NCBI GenBank assembly: GCA_913774715.1
Contig: CAJYHS010000041.1
Coordinates: forward strand, 1 to 64,000
Length of the DNA stretch: 64,000 bases
From: an uncultured Siphonobacter sp.
GTDB lineage: Bacteria > Bacteroidota > Bacteroidia > Cytophagales > Spirosomataceae
Direction: 5' to 3'
How positions within the stretch are numbered: position 1 is the first letter of the stretch; each line of letters begins with the position of its first letter. This document shows positions 16,483 to 23,976 of this stretch, piece after piece. The notes beneath the pieces are model-generated. The model was not told the origin of the DNA and did not search any database. It saw nothing but the letters and a program-made list of their open reading frames with translations. Made by a program: the position numbers and the translations under genes.

Positions 16483-18273
16483 TTATGCTTCGGGGTTCTC
16501 GTCTGTTTTAGGTTTAGGTGGCGTTTTGGCAAACAACAGCGACTGAGAAATCTCCAGCAATTTCCGCTGGGTTTCTTCGGGCGTTTCCTGATTTCGTTGC
16601 TGACCCTGTTTAGGTTGCTGCTGACGAGGAGCTTCCCGTCGTTCCTGACGGTTTTGCGGTTCTTCGCGTCGTTCCTGATTGTTTGCGTTACGCTGGAAGC
16701 GATTGTTGCGATTCTGATTCTGACGATCTTCCCGACGTGGACGTTCACGGGGTTGTTGCGAGTCGTCTGAATTGCTAGCTGCTGGTTGCGAAGGCTGCTC
16801 CTGGCGATTGGGGCGATCTTCGCGTCGTTCCTGATTATTATTATTACGCTGGAAGCGATTGTTCCGGTTTTGACGATCTTCCCGGCGAGGCCGATCATTC
16901 TGGCGGTCTTCTCGACGGGGCTGTTGCTCCGGTGAAGGCTGTTCGTCAACCGGGCTTTCGGTTAGCTCAGGTAAGGTTTCAATAACTTCAGAAATGGTTG
17001 GCTGAGTTACCTCAATGACCACTTCTTCTGAAGCAACGATTGATTCCTCTTCCTGTGGCTGCTCTTCTCTTTTCGGACGATCCTCTCGACTGGGTTTCTC
17101 CTCTCTATTCGGACGATTATCCCGACGGCGATCTTCCCGGTTTTGTGGACGTTCGCGAGGCTGCTCATTACCCAGTTTCGGATCACGTTCCTGTTGGGTC
17201 GGAATCTCGATTACGGGAGGCGTGGCGTTCGCCCGTTCGGCTTTGTCCGCTTCAATTTCATCCCATTGCTCCCGGTTACGCACAATGTCCAGAGCCGTGT
17301 AAATGGCGTGTAACATTGAGCTATGATCGGCCAGATTTTTTCCGGCAATGTCATACGCCGTCCCGTGATCGGGGCTGGTGCGAACAATGGACAATCCCGA
17401 AGTGAAGTTTACTCCATCTTCAAAGGCCAACATTTTAAAGGGCATCAGACCCTGATCATGATACATGGCCAGAATGGCGTCGAATTTCTTCCAGTTATTG
17501 GCTCCGAAGAATCCATCGGCCGGGAAGGGTCCGTATACCAGATGGTTATTCTTGCGGTATTGATCAATTACGGGGATAATCACTTCTTTCTCTTCGTTAC
17601 CCAAAAGCCCGTCTTCGCCCGCGTGTGGATTCAACCCAAGCACGGCAATGCGAGGTTTATTAATACCAAAATCTTTATGTAAAGACTTGATAATCTGATT
17701 CAGTTTCTTGGAAACGGCCTCCTGACTGATGTTGGAACGCACCCGGCCCAGCGGAACGTGACCCGTCACCACACCAATTTTCAAACGTTCCGAAACCATA
17801 AACATCAGATATTCGGAGGACTGGAAAGCTTCGGCCAGATACTCGGTATGTCCGGGAAATTTAAATTCCTCAGACTGAATGTTGTACTTATTGATTGGAG
17901 CTGTTACCAGTGCCGAAATCAAACCCGCTTTGAGGTCTTCTACGGCTTTGGCCAAGCTTTGAAAGGCTGCCTGACCGGCTTCGGGATGCACTTTACCAGG
18001 TTCGACGTTAGTCTGGCTGTCATCAAAACAGGTAATCACGTTTACCATCTTATGATTCAACTGATCGGCTGAGGGAGCCGGGTTCAGTTGCCAGTCTTTC
18101 ATATCGTACAAATGTTTGTAACGATTCAGAACCCGCATGGATCCGTAGATCACGGGTGTAAAGTGTTTATTGAGGTGATTTCCGTGTAAGGCCTTGAGAA
18201 TTACCTCCGGGCCAATGCCGTTGTAATCACCCATACTGATGCCAATTATCGGCTTTTGTGCTTGCTCGCTCAT
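16483..18273 (-). CDS. pdxA: 4-hydroxythreonine-4-phosphate dehydrogenase PdxA with a ~250-aa Arg/Asn/Gln/Glu-rich C-terminal extension
   Basis: 596 aa; PdxA core to about residue 345 (GISMGDYNGIGPEVILKAL, GHTEYLAE, LGLNPHAGEDGLLG, MYHDQGLMPFKM, RTSPDHGTAYDIAGK), then low-complexity RREDRQNRNNRFQRNNNNQERRED repeats in the same frame. Confidence 0.92.
   Translation of the reverse strand: MSEQAQKPIIGISMGDYNGIGPEVILKALHGNHLNKHFTPVIYGSMRVLNRYKHLYDMKDWQLNPAPSADQLNHKMVNVITCFDDSQTNVEPGKVHPEAGQAAFQSLAKAVEDLKAGLISALVTAPINKYNIQSEEFKFPGHTEYLAEAFQSSEYLMFMVSERLKIGVVTGHVPLGRVRSNISQEAVSKKLNQIIKSLHKDFGINKPRIAVLGLNPHAGEDGLLGNEEKEVIIPVIDQYRKNNHLVYGPFPADGFFGANNWKKFDAILAMYHDQGLMPFKMLAFEDGVNFTSGLSIVRTSPDHGTAYDIAGKNLADHSSMLHAIYTALDIVRNREQWDEIEADKAERANATPPVIEIPTQQERDPKLGNEQPRERPQNREDRRRDNRPNREEKPSREDRPKREEQPQEEESIVASEEVVIEVTQPTISEVIETLPELTESPVDEQPSPEQQPRREDRQNDRPRREDRQNRNNRFQRNNNNQERREDRPNRQEQPSQPAASNSDDSQQPRERPRREDRQNQNRNNRFQRNANNQERREEPQNRQERREAPRQQQPKQGQQRNQETPEETQRKLLEISQSLLFAKTPPKPKTDENPEA
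16661..16890. repeat. Internal direct duplication, 156-bp offset, within the pdxA tail
   Basis: tcttcgcgtcgttcctgatt at 16661-16680 and 16817-16836, each followed by NNNNNNNttacgctggaagcgattgtt in register. Confidence 0.8.
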
Positions 18274-18728
18274 ATCATTTCATCGGGTCAGCAATTTCGG
18301 TTTACTGACGTAAATAAGCAGTTCGTGAAGCGAAGTTACACCATCCACCCAAGAATTAGACCAGTTCGCGGATTTTTCGGAAATTCTAAGTCGAATAAAG
18401 GGTGTGGGGGTGGATTTCGAGGAGGTTTGATTAGTGTTTGAAAGTTTGATAATTTAGATAAGGTCAGGGCTGGCGGAGTTATGCTATTTAACAGTAGAAG
18501 GGCTATTCGGTAATAATAGGGTTACTGCGTAATTTTTCAAACCTTCTTAACTTTTCAAACGCCACTCAAACCTTCAAACGATATCCAACGATTCAAACCC
18601 AGTCCTGCGTGTGGTTTTTTTATAAAATCAAGCGAACTTTGGAGATTAGTATTAGGGTTATCCTAAGCAGGCACAATTACTTTTTTGAATGCTATGAAAG
18701 CTCAGCTCAGCGACTGGGCCCCTTTACC

Positions 18729-19667
18729 ATGAAGAAAATTTTCATTTGCGATGAGATGCACCCCAGTCTGTTCGAAATGCTCGAAACGGCGGGGCTTGAC
18801 TATAGCTATCAACCCAAAGCCAAACGTGAAGAAATTCTGGAGCAGATCGGTTCTTATGAAGGACTGATGATCCGTAATAAAACGCGGATAGATGAAGCCT
18901 TTTTACAGGCCGCTCCCAAGCTGGAATTTATTGGAAGAGCCGGAGCAGGACTGGATTTGATTGATAAAGAAGCCTGTGACCGGCATAAGGTTCGTCTCTT
19001 TGCTGCCAATGCGGGTAATATGGATGCTGTTGGCGAGCATGCCATGGGCATGTTACTGGCTCTGATGAACCACATTCACACGGCTGACCGGGAAGTACGT
19101 CAGAAAATCTGGTTACGCGAAGCCAATCGTGGGACCGAGCTGGGCGGTAAAACGGTGGGATTGATTGGCTATGGACATAACGGTTCGGCCTTTGCCAAAC
19201 GCCTGAGTAGCTTTAATGTGAAGGTGCTGGCGTATGACAAATACCGCGACAACTATTCCGATGCCTACGCCGAGCAGGCTACGATGGAGCAGATTTTTGA
19301 AGAAGCCGATGTTTTAAGCCTGCATATCCCGCTGACGGAAGAGACGAATTATCTGGTGAAAGAAGAATTTATTGCTCAATTCAAAAAGCCTTTTTACCTG
19401 ATCAACTGCTCGCGGGGCGAAATTGTGAAACTGGCGGCGGTACTCAAAGGACTGCAATCGGGAGCGGTCTTGGGAGCGTGTCTGGATGTGCTGGAAAATG
19501 AAAAACTGCACCAGTTACCCGATGGCCCGGACGAAGTTTTTGATACTTTGATTCAGTTACCCAACGTCATTTTTACTCCGCACGTAGCCGGATGGACACA
19601 TGAAAGTTACGTGAGAATCAACGAAGTGCTGGTACGGCAGATTGCTGATTCAGTTTTGAATAATTGA
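18729..19667 (+). CDS. D-isomer-specific 2-hydroxyacid dehydrogenase (SerA-like)
   Basis: ORF 18609..19667, likely start ATG 18729 (MKKIFICDEMHP); FIGRAGAGLDLID, TVGLIGYGHNGSAFAKRL, NCSRGEIV, TPHVAGWTHES. Confidence 0.9.
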   Translation: MKKIFICDEMHPSLFEMLETAGLDYSYQPKAKREEILEQIGSYEGLMIRNKTRIDEAFLQAAPKLEFIGRAGAGLDLIDKEACDRHKVRLFAANAGNMDAVGEHAMGMLLALMNHIHTADREVRQKIWLREANRGTELGGKTVGLIGYGHNGSAFAKRLSSFNVKVLAYDKYRDNYSDAYAEQATMEQIFEEADVLSLHIPLTEETNYLVKEEFIAQFKKPFYLINCSRGEIVKLAAVLKGLQSGAVLGACLDVLENEKLHQLPDGPDEVFDTLIQLPNVIFTPHVAGWTHESYVRINEVLVRQIADSVLNN

Positions 19668-19703
19668 GTGAGAGAATGATTGAATAAAATAACTACTTAA
19701 GCG

Positions 19704-20837
19704 ATGCTTCATTCCTTAGAAATTAAAAACTACCGAAACCTACGTCATCTGGTTATTCCGAAATTAGGTCGGGTTAATCTGGTGATTGGAAAGAATAATA
19801 CGGGGAAGAGTAGTTTGTTGGAGGCGGTAGCGATATATATTATTTTCGGAAGTAATAATTTTTTTATTAGACTTATTAATTTCCAAATGATTAGAGGAGA
19901 AATTGATTTTTCTTCTGATTTGAAAATTATTAATGAAGCTAGTAACAATCCTCAAATAGTATTTAACAAACTTAATGAAATTCATTTTTTGTCTTTGTTT
20001 TATAACAGAGAAATAGATAAATATTTGAAAGATGGGAAAAGTATATTTATTAGTTCAAATAGAGGTATTTTTGAATTAAATATAGTTAAATCGTATTTTA
20101 ACGAAAATAATGAATTTAAAATAGCCTCAAAAAAAGACGAAATTCCAGGACTATCATTTTCAACTGAGGTATTTGCTGGATTGAGAGTAGGGAAAGATAT
20201 AGATTATATGGCTCTACCTATCAGTGGTAATACTAATTATGGGCAAAGATCAGAAATTAATAAAAAGTTAAATAATACATGCGGGTTTGTGTCATCCAGT
20301 TTTAATCCGTTATCTGAGTCTTCAGACAGAATACATTGGGGAGCAATTGTTTTAACTGAAAAAGAGAAGTATGTAATTGATGCATTAAAAATAGTAGAAC
20401 CAAGAATAGAACAACTATCATATGCAGGTGACAATCTTGGAAAACCCTATGTTAGATTAAAAAATGAATCAATGCCAGTACCACTTCGGAGTATGGGAGA
20501 TGGTATTAATAGAGTATTGAAAATCATTCTTTCAATGGTCGTCTGTGAGAATGGAACATTTATAATCGACGAATTTGAAAATGGTTTACATTATTCCGTT
20601 CAGGAAAAACTGTGGGAGATTATTTTTCAATTAGCCGATAAATTAAATATTCAGGTTTTTGCTACTACGCATAGTAATGATACAATTAAATCATTTGAAT
20701 CTATTGTAAATAGTAATGAAAGCTATAAAGATAGCCAGTTGATTAAGCTAATAAATGTAGATGGAGATATCAAACAGGAAACTGCCGATGCAGAAGATTT
20801 GGAAATAATTGTTGACGGCAATATCGATCCTCGTTAA
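19704..20837 (+). CDS. AAA family ATPase, OLD/RecF/ABC-ATPase-like (AAA_15/AAA_21 type); putative defence ATPase
   Basis: 377 aa; MLHSLEIKNYRNLRHLVI, Walker A GKNNTGKSSLLEA, signature-like RSMGDGINRVLKI, Walker B TFIIDEFENGLHYSVQ, H-switch VFATTHSND. AT-rich versus neighbours. Confidence 0.88.
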   Translation: MLHSLEIKNYRNLRHLVIPKLGRVNLVIGKNNTGKSSLLEAVAIYIIFGSNNFFIRLINFQMIRGEIDFSSDLKIINEASNNPQIVFNKLNEIHFLSLFYNREIDKYLKDGKSIFISSNRGIFELNIVKSYFNENNEFKIASKKDEIPGLSFSTEVFAGLRVGKDIDYMALPISGNTNYGQRSEINKKLNNTCGFVSSSFNPLSESSDRIHWGAIVLTEKEKYVIDALKIVEPRIEQLSYAGDNLGKPYVRLKNESMPVPLRSMGDGINRVLKIILSMVVCENGTFIIDEFENGLHYSVQEKLWEIIFQLADKLNIQVFATTHSNDTIKSFESIVNSNESYKDSQLIKLINVDGDIKQETADAEDLEIIVDGNIDPR

Positions 20838-21496
20838 TGAAAATAGAAGAGAAATTTAATCAGAAATTATTAGTTGAAGGGAACGATGATCAACATGTAA
20901 TTTGGTCTATCTGTGATAAAAATAAAGTTACTGAAAGTTTTGATATTATCGATTGCGGAAGTGATTCTCAATTATTAAGACAATTATCAAGAAGAATTAG
21001 ATTTAACGCTGATAAGGTCAAAGCGATTGGAATATTACTCGATGCAGATACAAGTTTGCAGAAAAGATGGAATGAGATAAAAAAACAAGTCAAGGATTTA
21101 GGTTATGCTTTACCTGATGTTCCAGACGCAAATGGCACCATTATTGAATCTTCCAGTTATTATCCACGTTTAGGCATATGGCTGATGCCTGATAACTTAC
21201 AAAGTTCTGGGATGCTGGAAGATTTCGCTAAAGTATTAATTCCAGAGCAGGATGAATTATTGATGGAGGTAGAGCAGGTATTGATTAAAATAGAAACTGC
21301 TCCCCGAAAAGCTATCTATAAAGATATTCACAAAGCAAAGGCTTTAATACATACCTGGTTAGCCTGGCAAGAAGATCCCGGAACGCCGATGAGTTTGGCT
21401 ATTACTAAATCGTATCTGAATCACAACCACGAATTAGCCATTCGTTTTGTAACCTGGCTAAATGCCCTTTTTAATCCAACAACAAACAACCAGTAA
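20837..21496 (+). CDS. DUF3226/TOPRIM-like protein, partner of the upstream AAA ATPase
   Basis: 219 aa; TOPRIM-like LLVEGNDDQHVIWSI and IGILLDADTSLQKRW (E...DxD), C-terminal HKAKALIHTWLAWQEDPGTPMSLAITKSYL. Start overlaps ATPase stop (TAATG). Confidence 0.8.
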   Translation: MKIEEKFNQKLLVEGNDDQHVIWSICDKNKVTESFDIIDCGSDSQLLRQLSRRIRFNADKVKAIGILLDADTSLQKRWNEIKKQVKDLGYALPDVPDANGTIIESSSYYPRLGIWLMPDNLQSSGMLEDFAKVLIPEQDELLMEVEQVLIKIETAPRKAIYKDIHKAKALIHTWLAWQEDPGTPMSLAITKSYLNHNHELAIRFVTWLNALFNPTTNNQ

Positions 21497-21513: not shown

Positions 21514-23976
21514 TTGCTTTATCCTAAAAACATAGAAGAAAAACTCGGATTCGACCGGATTCGTCAGATGCTTAGCGAGGCTTGTCTGTCTTCGCTGGGA
21601 CGGTCGTTTGTGGAGAAAATACGCTTTTCTGACCGCTTTGACCAGATTCAGAAGATGGTCGGGCAGGTGGCAGAAATGAAGGAAGTCGTGGCTCACGAGC
21701 CCGATTTTCCGCAGTCAAATTACATTGATGTTAACCAGCAAATTGCCAAAGCTCGTATTGAAGGGGCTTTTTTAACCGAAGAAGAATTCTTTGATCTTAA
21801 ATTATCGCTGCGAACGATTCAGAGTATCCAGCGATTTTTTGAGACGAAAGAAGAACCCAGTTTTCCGCATTTACGGGAGCTGACCACGCAGGCTTTTCAG
21901 GAACGCAAAACGGATGATGAGGACAAACCCCGTCGCAACAAGAGCGATGAATTGTCGCTGTTACTGAAAGAAATAGACCGGATTATTGATGATCGCGGTC
22001 GCCTGCGGGATAATGCGTCGGCGGAGTTGCAGCACATTCGCCGGGAGCTGATTTCCGAGCAAAGTCGCCTGCGGAAAACGCTGGATTCCATGCTACGGAC
22101 GGCTCAGCAAAATGGCTGGGTGCCCGAAGGGGCTACCATGACCGTACGGAATGGCCGGATGGTTATTCCGCTCGTGGCCGAGCACAAACGCAAAATTCGC
22201 GGCTTCGTGCAGGACGAATCAGATTCGGGAAAAACGGTCTTTCTGGAGCCTGCCGATGCCCTGGAGTCGAACAACGAAATCCGGGAACTGGAATCGCGAG
22301 AACGCCGGGAAATTGTACGGATCTTGATGGAATTAACTTCCAAAGTCCGGCCTCATACTGAAGAACTCAAGCGGGCGTATACCTTTCTGGGAATCGTCGA
22401 TTTTATCCGTGCCAAGGCAAAACTGGCTTTGGAAATGGACGCGAACGCCCCGCATTTTGTGCAAAAACCGCTGGTTGACTGGCACGGTGCCCGGCATCCT
22501 CTGTTACTGATGAGTTATCAGAAACAGGGCCGAAGTGTTGTGCCTTTGCACGTAAAGCTCGATCACGAAGAACGGATTTTGCTGGTTTCCGGCCCCAATG
22601 CCGGGGGGAAGTCCGTCATGCTGAAGACGATTGGTCTGATTCAATACATGTTCCAGTGCGGATTACTGGTTCCGGTCGATGATTTCTCGACGATTGGACT
22701 CTTCCGCAATCTGTTCATGGATATTGGTGATGAGCAAAGTCTGGAAAATGACCTTTCGACGTACTCGTCACACTTAACCAACATGAAGCACTTTCTGCTT
22801 CATTCGGATAAAAAAACGTTGTTCCTGATCGACGAATTTGGAACGGGAACGGAGCCCAGTTTGGGCGGAGCCATTGCTGAAAGTATTCTGAACGAAATCA
22901 ACCGTTCGGGAGCCTATGGTGTGATTAACACCCACTATTCCAACCTGAAAACCTTCGCTGACCGGACGGATGGACTCGTAAACGGGGCCATGCGTTTTGA
23001 CGCCGAACACCTGGAACCGCTCTATCAACTGGAGACGGGCAAGCCCGGCAGTTCGTTTGCCTTTGAAATTGGTCGGAAAATTGGCTTACCCAAGCCTGTA
23101 CTTGATGCGGCCCGTCAGAAGCTGGATCGGCATCAGGTCAATTTCGAGAAGCTTTCGAAAGAACTGGAAATTGAGAAAAAGGTATTTCAGGATCGAAATA
23201 CTCAGAATTTACAGCGGCAAAACGAACTGGATAAGTTAACCGAACAGTACCAGACGCTGAAGAACTACCTCGATACGGAGAAAAAACGCTTACTCAACGA
23301 AGCGAAAGCTCAGGCGAAGGAGTTGCTGCGGGAAGCGAATGCGAAGATCGAGAATACCATTCGGGAGATTCGCGAGCAGGGAGCCGAAAAACTGGCCACG
23401 AAAGAAATTCGTCAGCAGTTAACGGATTTCTCCAGCAAGCAACTCCAGCCAGAGGTTATCGCTCCACCGAAAGCGGCTCCCGTTAATGAGGTGGAAGTCG
23501 TAGGTGGCGTAATTACTACGGGTTCGCTGGTGCGGATAAAAGGCCAGAACACCGTAGGCGAGGTGCTGGAGCTGAAAGGCAAAGACGCCGTTATCGCTAT
23601 CGGTGATTTACGAACGACAATCAAAGTAAATCGCCTTGAAAAAGTTAGTCGCAAAGAATTCAAGGCTGCCACGGGTGAAGATAAACCGCGGGCTAAATTG
23701 ACCGGCGTTGATCTGAATGAGAAAGCGGTAAATTTCTCGTTCAATCTGGACATTCGCGGACGACGCGGCGAAGAAGCTATGGTGGAAGTCGATAATTTTA
23801 TGGATGATGCCATCATGCTGGGGTATCCTGAATTACGGATTGTCCACGGAAAAGGTGACGGGATTTTACGTCAACTTATTCGAAATCACCTGCGTAGTTA
23901 CTCGCAGGTTTCCCGCATGACCGACGAACACCCGGATCGGGGTGGAGCGGGAGTGACCATTGTTGAAATGAAATAA
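21514..23976 (+). CDS. mutS2: Endonuclease MutS2
   Basis: 820 aa; MutS ATPase (SGPNAGGKSVMLKTIG, TLFLIDEFGTGTEPSLGG, NTHYSNLK) and C-terminal Smr domain (LDIRGRRGEEAMVEVDNFMDDAIMLGYPELRIVHGKGDGILRQ). TTG start. Confidence 0.94.
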   Translation: MLYPKNIEEKLGFDRIRQMLSEACLSSLGRSFVEKIRFSDRFDQIQKMVGQVAEMKEVVAHEPDFPQSNYIDVNQQIAKARIEGAFLTEEEFFDLKLSLRTIQSIQRFFETKEEPSFPHLRELTTQAFQERKTDDEDKPRRNKSDELSLLLKEIDRIIDDRGRLRDNASAELQHIRRELISEQSRLRKTLDSMLRTAQQNGWVPEGATMTVRNGRMVIPLVAEHKRKIRGFVQDESDSGKTVFLEPADALESNNEIRELESRERREIVRILMELTSKVRPHTEELKRAYTFLGIVDFIRAKAKLALEMDANAPHFVQKPLVDWHGARHPLLLMSYQKQGRSVVPLHVKLDHEERILLVSGPNAGGKSVMLKTIGLIQYMFQCGLLVPVDDFSTIGLFRNLFMDIGDEQSLENDLSTYSSHLTNMKHFLLHSDKKTLFLIDEFGTGTEPSLGGAIAESILNEINRSGAYGVINTHYSNLKTFADRTDGLVNGAMRFDAEHLEPLYQLETGKPGSSFAFEIGRKIGLPKPVLDAARQKLDRHQVNFEKLSKELEIEKKVFQDRNTQNLQRQNELDKLTEQYQTLKNYLDTEKKRLLNEAKAQAKELLREANAKIENTIREIREQGAEKLATKEIRQQLTDFSSKQLQPEVIAPPKAAPVNEVEVVGGVITTGSLVRIKGQNTVGEVLELKGKDAVIAIGDLRTTIKVNRLEKVSRKEFKAATGEDKPRAKLTGVDLNEKAVNFSFNLDIRGRRGEEAMVEVDNFMDDAIMLGYPELRIVHGKGDGILRQLIRNHLRSYSQVSRMTDEHPDRGGAGVTIVEMK

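Follow-up and report, generated by a model that had tools for sequence, protein, structure and literature searches.

The ATPase of a two-gene locus in a Siphonobacter-like genome contains a segment, amino acids ~45–255 and here called the arm, that is an exchangeable cassette, swapped independently of the effector encoded by the second gene. The locus lies in a 64,000-nucleotide stretch of DNA, which as a whole is called the window; the nearest named relatives of its source are Siphonobacter. Both genes match full-length the PADLOC "phage defense candidate" PDC-M38, so the pair is already catalogued, and it very probably forms the anti-virus system listed there with the status of a candidate. 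Arm swaps were found in at least five lineages, a number judged from the lineages and not counted formally. We consider it reasonably likely that PDC-M38 is a mobile two-gene split ATPase/TOPRIM defense module in which the arm would sense a phage trigger and the outcome would be a PARIS-like abortive infection. The parts of the locus are as follows.

19649..21478, + strand: segment without counterpart in G001 and G004, sister species in which this site is empty (the flanks align at 78–83% on both sides)
19704..20837, + strand: ATPase gene, PDC-M38A (377 aa; predicted ABC/Rad50-type)
19704..19835, + strand: conserved N lobe of the ATPase (aa 1–44) with Walker A, GKNNTGKSS, at 19788–19814
19836..20468, + strand: exchangeable arm cassette (aa ~45–255), proposed trigger sensor, marked by low identity between conserved flanks and by its GC3
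20469..20834, + strand: conserved C part of the ATPase (aa 256–377) with the GDG signature region, Walker B (20559–20591), H-switch (20661–20681) and an invariant C-terminal Arg
20800..21130, + strand: second exchanged segment, found against G002, covering the last ~10 ATPase residues and the TOPRIM catalytic half of the partner
20837..21496, + strand: DUF3226 TOPRIM partner, PDC-M38B (219 aa), putative nuclease effector
20876..20890, + strand: E14 and D18, proposed metal ligands (E400 and E404 of Bp OLD), 99% and 95% conserved, with +4 spacing as in OLD
21041..21049, + strand: D69-A-D71, the DxD motif (D455/D457 of OLD), D69 99% conserved
21218..21220, + strand: E128, located in a helix and proposed to bind metal B (E508 of OLD, an equivalence taken from order and spacing), 98% conserved

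The stop codon of the ATPase gene (TAA, 20835–20837) and the start codon of the partner (ATG, 20837–20839) have one base in common. A first-pass annotation of this DNA had given the coordinates of both open reading frames, their overlap, the Walker A, Walker B and H-switch motifs and the partner motifs LLVEGNDD and LLDADTS; all of these are exact and, given the Pfam matches and the conservation, far beyond chance. The pair is flanked on its 5' side by a D-3-phosphoglycerate-dehydrogenase-like gene (18609–19667) and on its 3' side by mutS2 (21514–23976), both named from sequence. In G001 and G004 the equivalents of window positions 19648 and 21479 are separated by just 18 bases, 1.83 kb being absent, and the GC content of the pair is 0.28–0.34 vs 0.45–0.50 outside it. 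A promoter scan gave no excess over the shuffled expectation. Further upstream, on the reverse strand (16483–18273), a PdxA-like dehydrogenase open reading frame carries a low-complexity C-terminal tail of ~250 aa rich in Arg, Asn, Gln and Glu, and an open reading frame of equal length occupies the same place in G002 (L035:4652-6436). In G002 the mutS2 gene beside the pair is broken into two frames near residue 163 (G002:C28:264759-265843; L154, L155), through either an assembly error or a frameshift.

Arm exchange is recognized by close pairs of loci in which the ATPase parts on either side of the arm and the partner are 75–98% identical (77–98% for the partner) and the arms only 20–38%, with abrupt breakpoints in DNA whose surroundings are colinear. 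At the same site in G003, identity to the window is 98% over the first 362 aa of MutS2, 100% in the N lobe, 83% in the C part and 85% in the partner, but only ~20% in the arm (aa 45–255); DNA identity drops from 93% to 40–47% between ~19834 and ~20493 and then recovers. Spirosoma luteum and S. spitsbergense have 94% identical partners and 20% identical arms, with 659 unmatched bases inside 9.5 kb of 86–88% identical DNA, and in two other Spirosoma the partners are 98% and the arms 22% identical. The same kind of swap occurs in Chloroflexota-type loci (L134 vs L141/L145) and in rumen loci (L077/L079). The latter have 77% identical partners on records from Erysipelotrichaceae and Prevotellaceae, reflecting cross-phylum transfer or a misbinned contig. 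Some loci derive from metagenome bins; the key exchange pairs include isolates. Across the family, clustering at 40% identity gave 67 groups for the arm, as opposed to 13 for the partner and one for the core. The N lobe is 68–100% identical among close relatives, those with different arms included, and the arm ranges from 164 to 215 aa (5–95%) with the remaining parts almost fixed in length. Base composition also sets the arm apart, with a GC3 of 0.16 in the window vs 0.43 in the N lobe; in 94 of 112 loci, which are not independent of one another, the arm has a lower GC3 than the remainder of the gene that contains it.

Fast evolution in place, or an artefact of alignment or assembly, would be another source of such divergence, and it draws on two observations: conservation of the arm across the family is poor (majority residue ~0.2 per column), and a few pairs with 60–75% identical partners show intermediate arms of 45–70%. 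We nevertheless judge it improbable. Where partners are at least 75% identical, in a set in which some rows are duplicate genomes, arms are below 45% in ten pairs, above 70% in twelve, and between 45% and 70% in none. At the arm edges DNA identity goes from ~90% to 40–47% within 100–200 bases and then back, and isolates are involved (S. luteum/S. spitsbergense and S. lacussanchae/S. sordidisoli).

The last of these pairs shows the reverse exchange and also tells against divergence in place, arms of 95% identity lying beside partners of 46%; a near-identical arm with a different partner in another lineage, which speaks for exchange, was met this once. In S. lacussanchae and S. sordidisoli the N lobes are 98% identical, the replaced DNA takes in the last part of the ATPase gene and the greater part of the gene for the partner, and the surroundings are 91–93% identical. 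Between the window and G002 the ATPases are all but identical, and the partners differ in their first half; DNA identity runs from 97–100% to 52–56% across the second exchanged segment and returns to 96–100%. The three Siphonobacter loci (window, G002, and G003) are therefore mosaics: arm A is combined with TOPRIM A in one and with TOPRIM B in another, and arm B goes with TOPRIM A in the third, whose partner is broken. Co-exchange of the ATPase tail with the partner comes from L070/L131 and, marginally, from the window and G002; globally, covariation between the C-terminal tail and the partner was unsupported (partial r 0.29 given the core vs 0.45 for the arm). Since repeated replacement is expected of a segment that recognizes changing phage molecules, the arm is probably the trigger-sensing part of the ATPase.

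In the ATPase, Walker A occupies aa 29–37, Walker B (FIIDEFENGLH) aa 286–296, and the H-switch (ATTHSND) aa 320–326. Across 101 ATPases there is little or no variation at G29, N31, G34, K35, D289, E290, H296, Q317, H323, and R377, the last of these, at the C terminus, being invariant in all 101 sequences. Pfam assigns the protein to AAA_15 (1e-24) and also to AAA_21. The AlphaFold (AF2) model has a pLDDT of 86.5, with its minimum in aa 45–210, and the top Foldseek matches are Septu PtuA, retron Eco8, and the heads of Rad50 and SMC, which is why we class the protein, on its modeled fold, as an ABC-type (Rad50/SMC-head) ATPase. The earlier label "AAA-ATPase" thus holds as a Pfam name (AAA_15/AAA_21) and not for the fold.

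The partner, which matches only DUF3226 in Pfam (4.7e-72), was modeled with high confidence (AF2 pLDDT 93.6). Its best PDB matches in Foldseek are the C-terminal TOPRIM regions of the Xanthomonas and Burkholderia OLD proteins (E 3.9e-4 to 1.5e-2, probability 0.92–1.00), with TM scores of 0.37–0.43 that denote a partial fold match; AriB ranks later (0.083), and the same search among viral proteins gave no significant match. Weak OLD-like_TOPRIM matches occur in 5 of 70 relatives of the partner and a weak DUF4435 match (0.01) in one of the 70. The structure prediction thus bears out the TOPRIM fold proposed at first pass and identifies the partner as a TOPRIM protein. In OLD, two metals are coordinated by E400, E404, D455, D457, T506, and E508, an arrangement common to RNase M5 (PMC6755086). 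The motifs LVEGNDD (E14, D18) and LLDADTS (D69, D71), together with E128, follow this order, and across ~98 relatives conservation appears to extend to each of the five positions that would match metal ligands of the OLD/RNase M5 two-metal site, the equivalence being drawn from order and spacing; the D71 position holds D in 70 of 98 sequences and N in 26. The uncharacterized family DUF3226 can now be given a probable fold and active site.

The pairing itself is nearly constant, the ATPase lying directly upstream of the partner, the two genes overlapping or standing apart by a few bases, in all but 5 of ~112 distinct loci (two of the five exceptions end at a contig edge). Hosts include Bacteroidota, Chloroflexota, Pseudomonadota, Planctomycetes, Acidobacteria, Nitrospirota, and others. 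Occurrence is patchy: three of six genomes of the genus, 23 of 223 of the family (10%), and 17 of 396 of the phylum Bacteroidota (4%), a rate similar to that of DUF4435/PARIS in the phylum (20/396). Patchy presence, the empty site, low GC, plasmid copies, and a Plesiomonas copy by phage tail genes mark the pair as mobile and horizontally spread. That copy is in a plasmid region (L156; NZ_CP027853.1, 1–8621) downstream of genes for tail protein X and a gpD-like protein, a setting that resembles the spots where P2-like prophages hold defense cargo. A 4071-bp ColRNAI plasmid of Klebsiella pneumoniae (L157; NZ_CP070094.1) consists of the ATPase–DUF3226 pair, replication genes, and little else. A phage collection contained no copy of the pair, and viral contigs two only; E. 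coli yielded no copies with the Klebsiella or Plesiomonas queries, an earlier query having matched the plasmid backbone only. Recurrent association in defense islands had been anticipated for the pair: its recurrence is borne out (~112 loci), but its neighbors are no richer in defense genes than controls. Matches to PADLOC families at 1e-10 numbered 66 and 78 among 143 and 148 neighbor proteins vs 69 among 145 control proteins, which is no clear enrichment in a comparison that is crude because families rather than distinct proteins were counted.

A housekeeping role in DNA repair or RNA processing, with a RecF/Rad50-like ATPase and an RNase M5/OLD-like TOPRIM enzyme, would suit the fold similarity to Rad50/RecF/SMC heads and to TOPRIM enzymes, and the archaeal OLD relative Cran1 does have a cell-cycle role (PMC12796447). 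It is nonetheless very improbable for a pair that is present in 10% of a family and 4% of a phylum, leaves an empty site in sister species, has low GC and a hypervariable arm, and is disrupted in its partner gene in two genomes. In those two (G003:C5:184831-185486, L198; Runella G035:C63, L214) the partner is interrupted by stops, in G003 also by a frame change, and the ATPase is open. The idea that the effector is lost more readily because it is toxic was considered and set aside, since G003 and G035 fit and one genome shows the opposite, too few cases to go by.

The pair could instead be a selfish element of the toxin–antitoxin or addiction type, or act against plasmids, with arm variation serving to avoid cross-talk between co-resident copies rather than to sense phages. 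The small K. pneumoniae plasmid with the pair and little else would suit such an element, as would the two or more copies carried by several genomes (G338, G356, and G262), and PARIS itself has been described as a toxin–antitoxin system (PMC11455837). An arm devoted to self-recognition should, however, track its partner, and arms change beside 94–98% identical partners, as partners do beside conserved arms; moreover, the majority of copies are on records not identified as plasmids. We therefore regard this explanation as unlikely, though less so than a housekeeping function.

The defense reading that we prefer starts from computed features, namely the TOPRIM fold of the partner and its conserved catalytic residues, the near-constant pairing of the two genes, their horizontal, patchy spread, and exchange of both arm and effector. 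No PDC-M38 member has, to our knowledge, been linked to a phage or plasmid phenotype. In the PARIS system the TOPRIM toxin is kept sequestered by a hexamer of the ATPase and is let go once a phage protein binds (PMC11455837); anti-restriction proteins act as the trigger, and the freed AriB cleaves tRNA (PMC9122126, PMC12409363). By analogy, PARIS logic most likely fits the present pair as well, and we infer from it the oligomer, the inhibition and release, the substrate, and the abortive infection. A Rad50/PtuA-like ABC ATPase, probably oligomeric, would keep the small TOPRIM protein in check, and the arm, which is inserted after Walker A and before the signature region, would bind a phage-encoded trigger. 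Binding and ATP turnover would then free or activate the TOPRIM protein, which, as a predicted two-metal nuclease, may cut tRNA or DNA and so stop the infected cell. Because the arm is proposed to set trigger specificity, it would be replaced by recombination between near-identical systems, and the effector could be replaced separately.

It is possible, though we hold this broader idea more tentatively, that PDC-M38 is a combinatorial immune receptor, with a standard ABC chassis on which the sensor arm and, separately from it, the TOPRIM effector can be exchanged, populations reassorting both by homologous recombination in the conserved parts, in a manner likened to specificity-domain exchange in type I restriction systems. 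Recognition of infection by ATPase/TOPRIM systems is little understood beyond PARIS, and natural swaps of a ~200-residue segment point to a likely sensor; matched natural pairs, such as two Spirosoma type strains, offer material for relating the arm to phage range and triggers.

Among known systems, PARIS shares with the window pair the split two-gene layout and an AAA_15/AAA_21 ABC ATPase beside a TOPRIM effector. AriA models match all 69 related ATPases, and there is a weak similarity to AriB. The partner of the window is a DUF3226 protein (~210 aa) and AriB a DUF4435 protein (~300 aa), the very distinction drawn at first pass, and the ATPase has 377 aa vs 464 aa for AriA in the PDB; two close AriA/AriB pairs, a weak control, showed no arm exchange. 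OLD nucleases of classes 1–3, including Gabija GajA and Retron-Eco8, likewise combine an ABC ATPase with a TOPRIM domain, in which the proposed metal ligands of the partner have counterparts in the same order, but in one chain rather than two open reading frames. A fused relative of this kind was seen at L065:6255-7880, where one 541-aa open reading frame has ABC ATPase motifs followed by VLVEG...VVDGDD. Unlike Gabija and Retron-Eco8, the window pair has no adjoining UvrD-like helicase or reverse transcriptase, the next gene on the 3' side being mutS2 and not GajB. The split ATPase/TOPRIM architecture and the PARIS/OLD-like reading first proposed are both supported.

The AbiLi model of AbiL matches the ATPase full-length (7e-54) as well as 69 of 69 relatives, but AbiLii matches neither the partner nor the partners of those relatives. 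Septu PtuA is the best Foldseek match of the ATPase; the Septu effector is an HNH nuclease, PtuB, and not a TOPRIM protein. In PADLOC the ATPase is closest to PDC-M38A (3.5e-83) and AbiLi rather than to AriA (7e-25), and the partner matches PDC-M38B (1.9e-58, aa 6–213). The first-pass annotation is thus partly supported: it was right on the kind of system and missed the catalogue entry, the closeness to PDC-M38A and AbiLi, and the exchangeable ATPase arm. Both proteins match the A and B models of PADLOC-DB 2.0.0 full-length (ATPase aa 1–375 on a 383-position model), as do all 69 related ATPases and all 70 partners tested, and structurally PDC-M38 does not differ from the window pair. Open-access papers make no mention of PDC-M38 or DUF3226, a study in the subscription literature being possible, and the catalogue entry, as far as we found, carries no function, mechanism, fold, or arm exchange. 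The family is therefore catalogued yet, as far as we found, uncharacterized, and the exchangeable, sensor-like arm is its new part.
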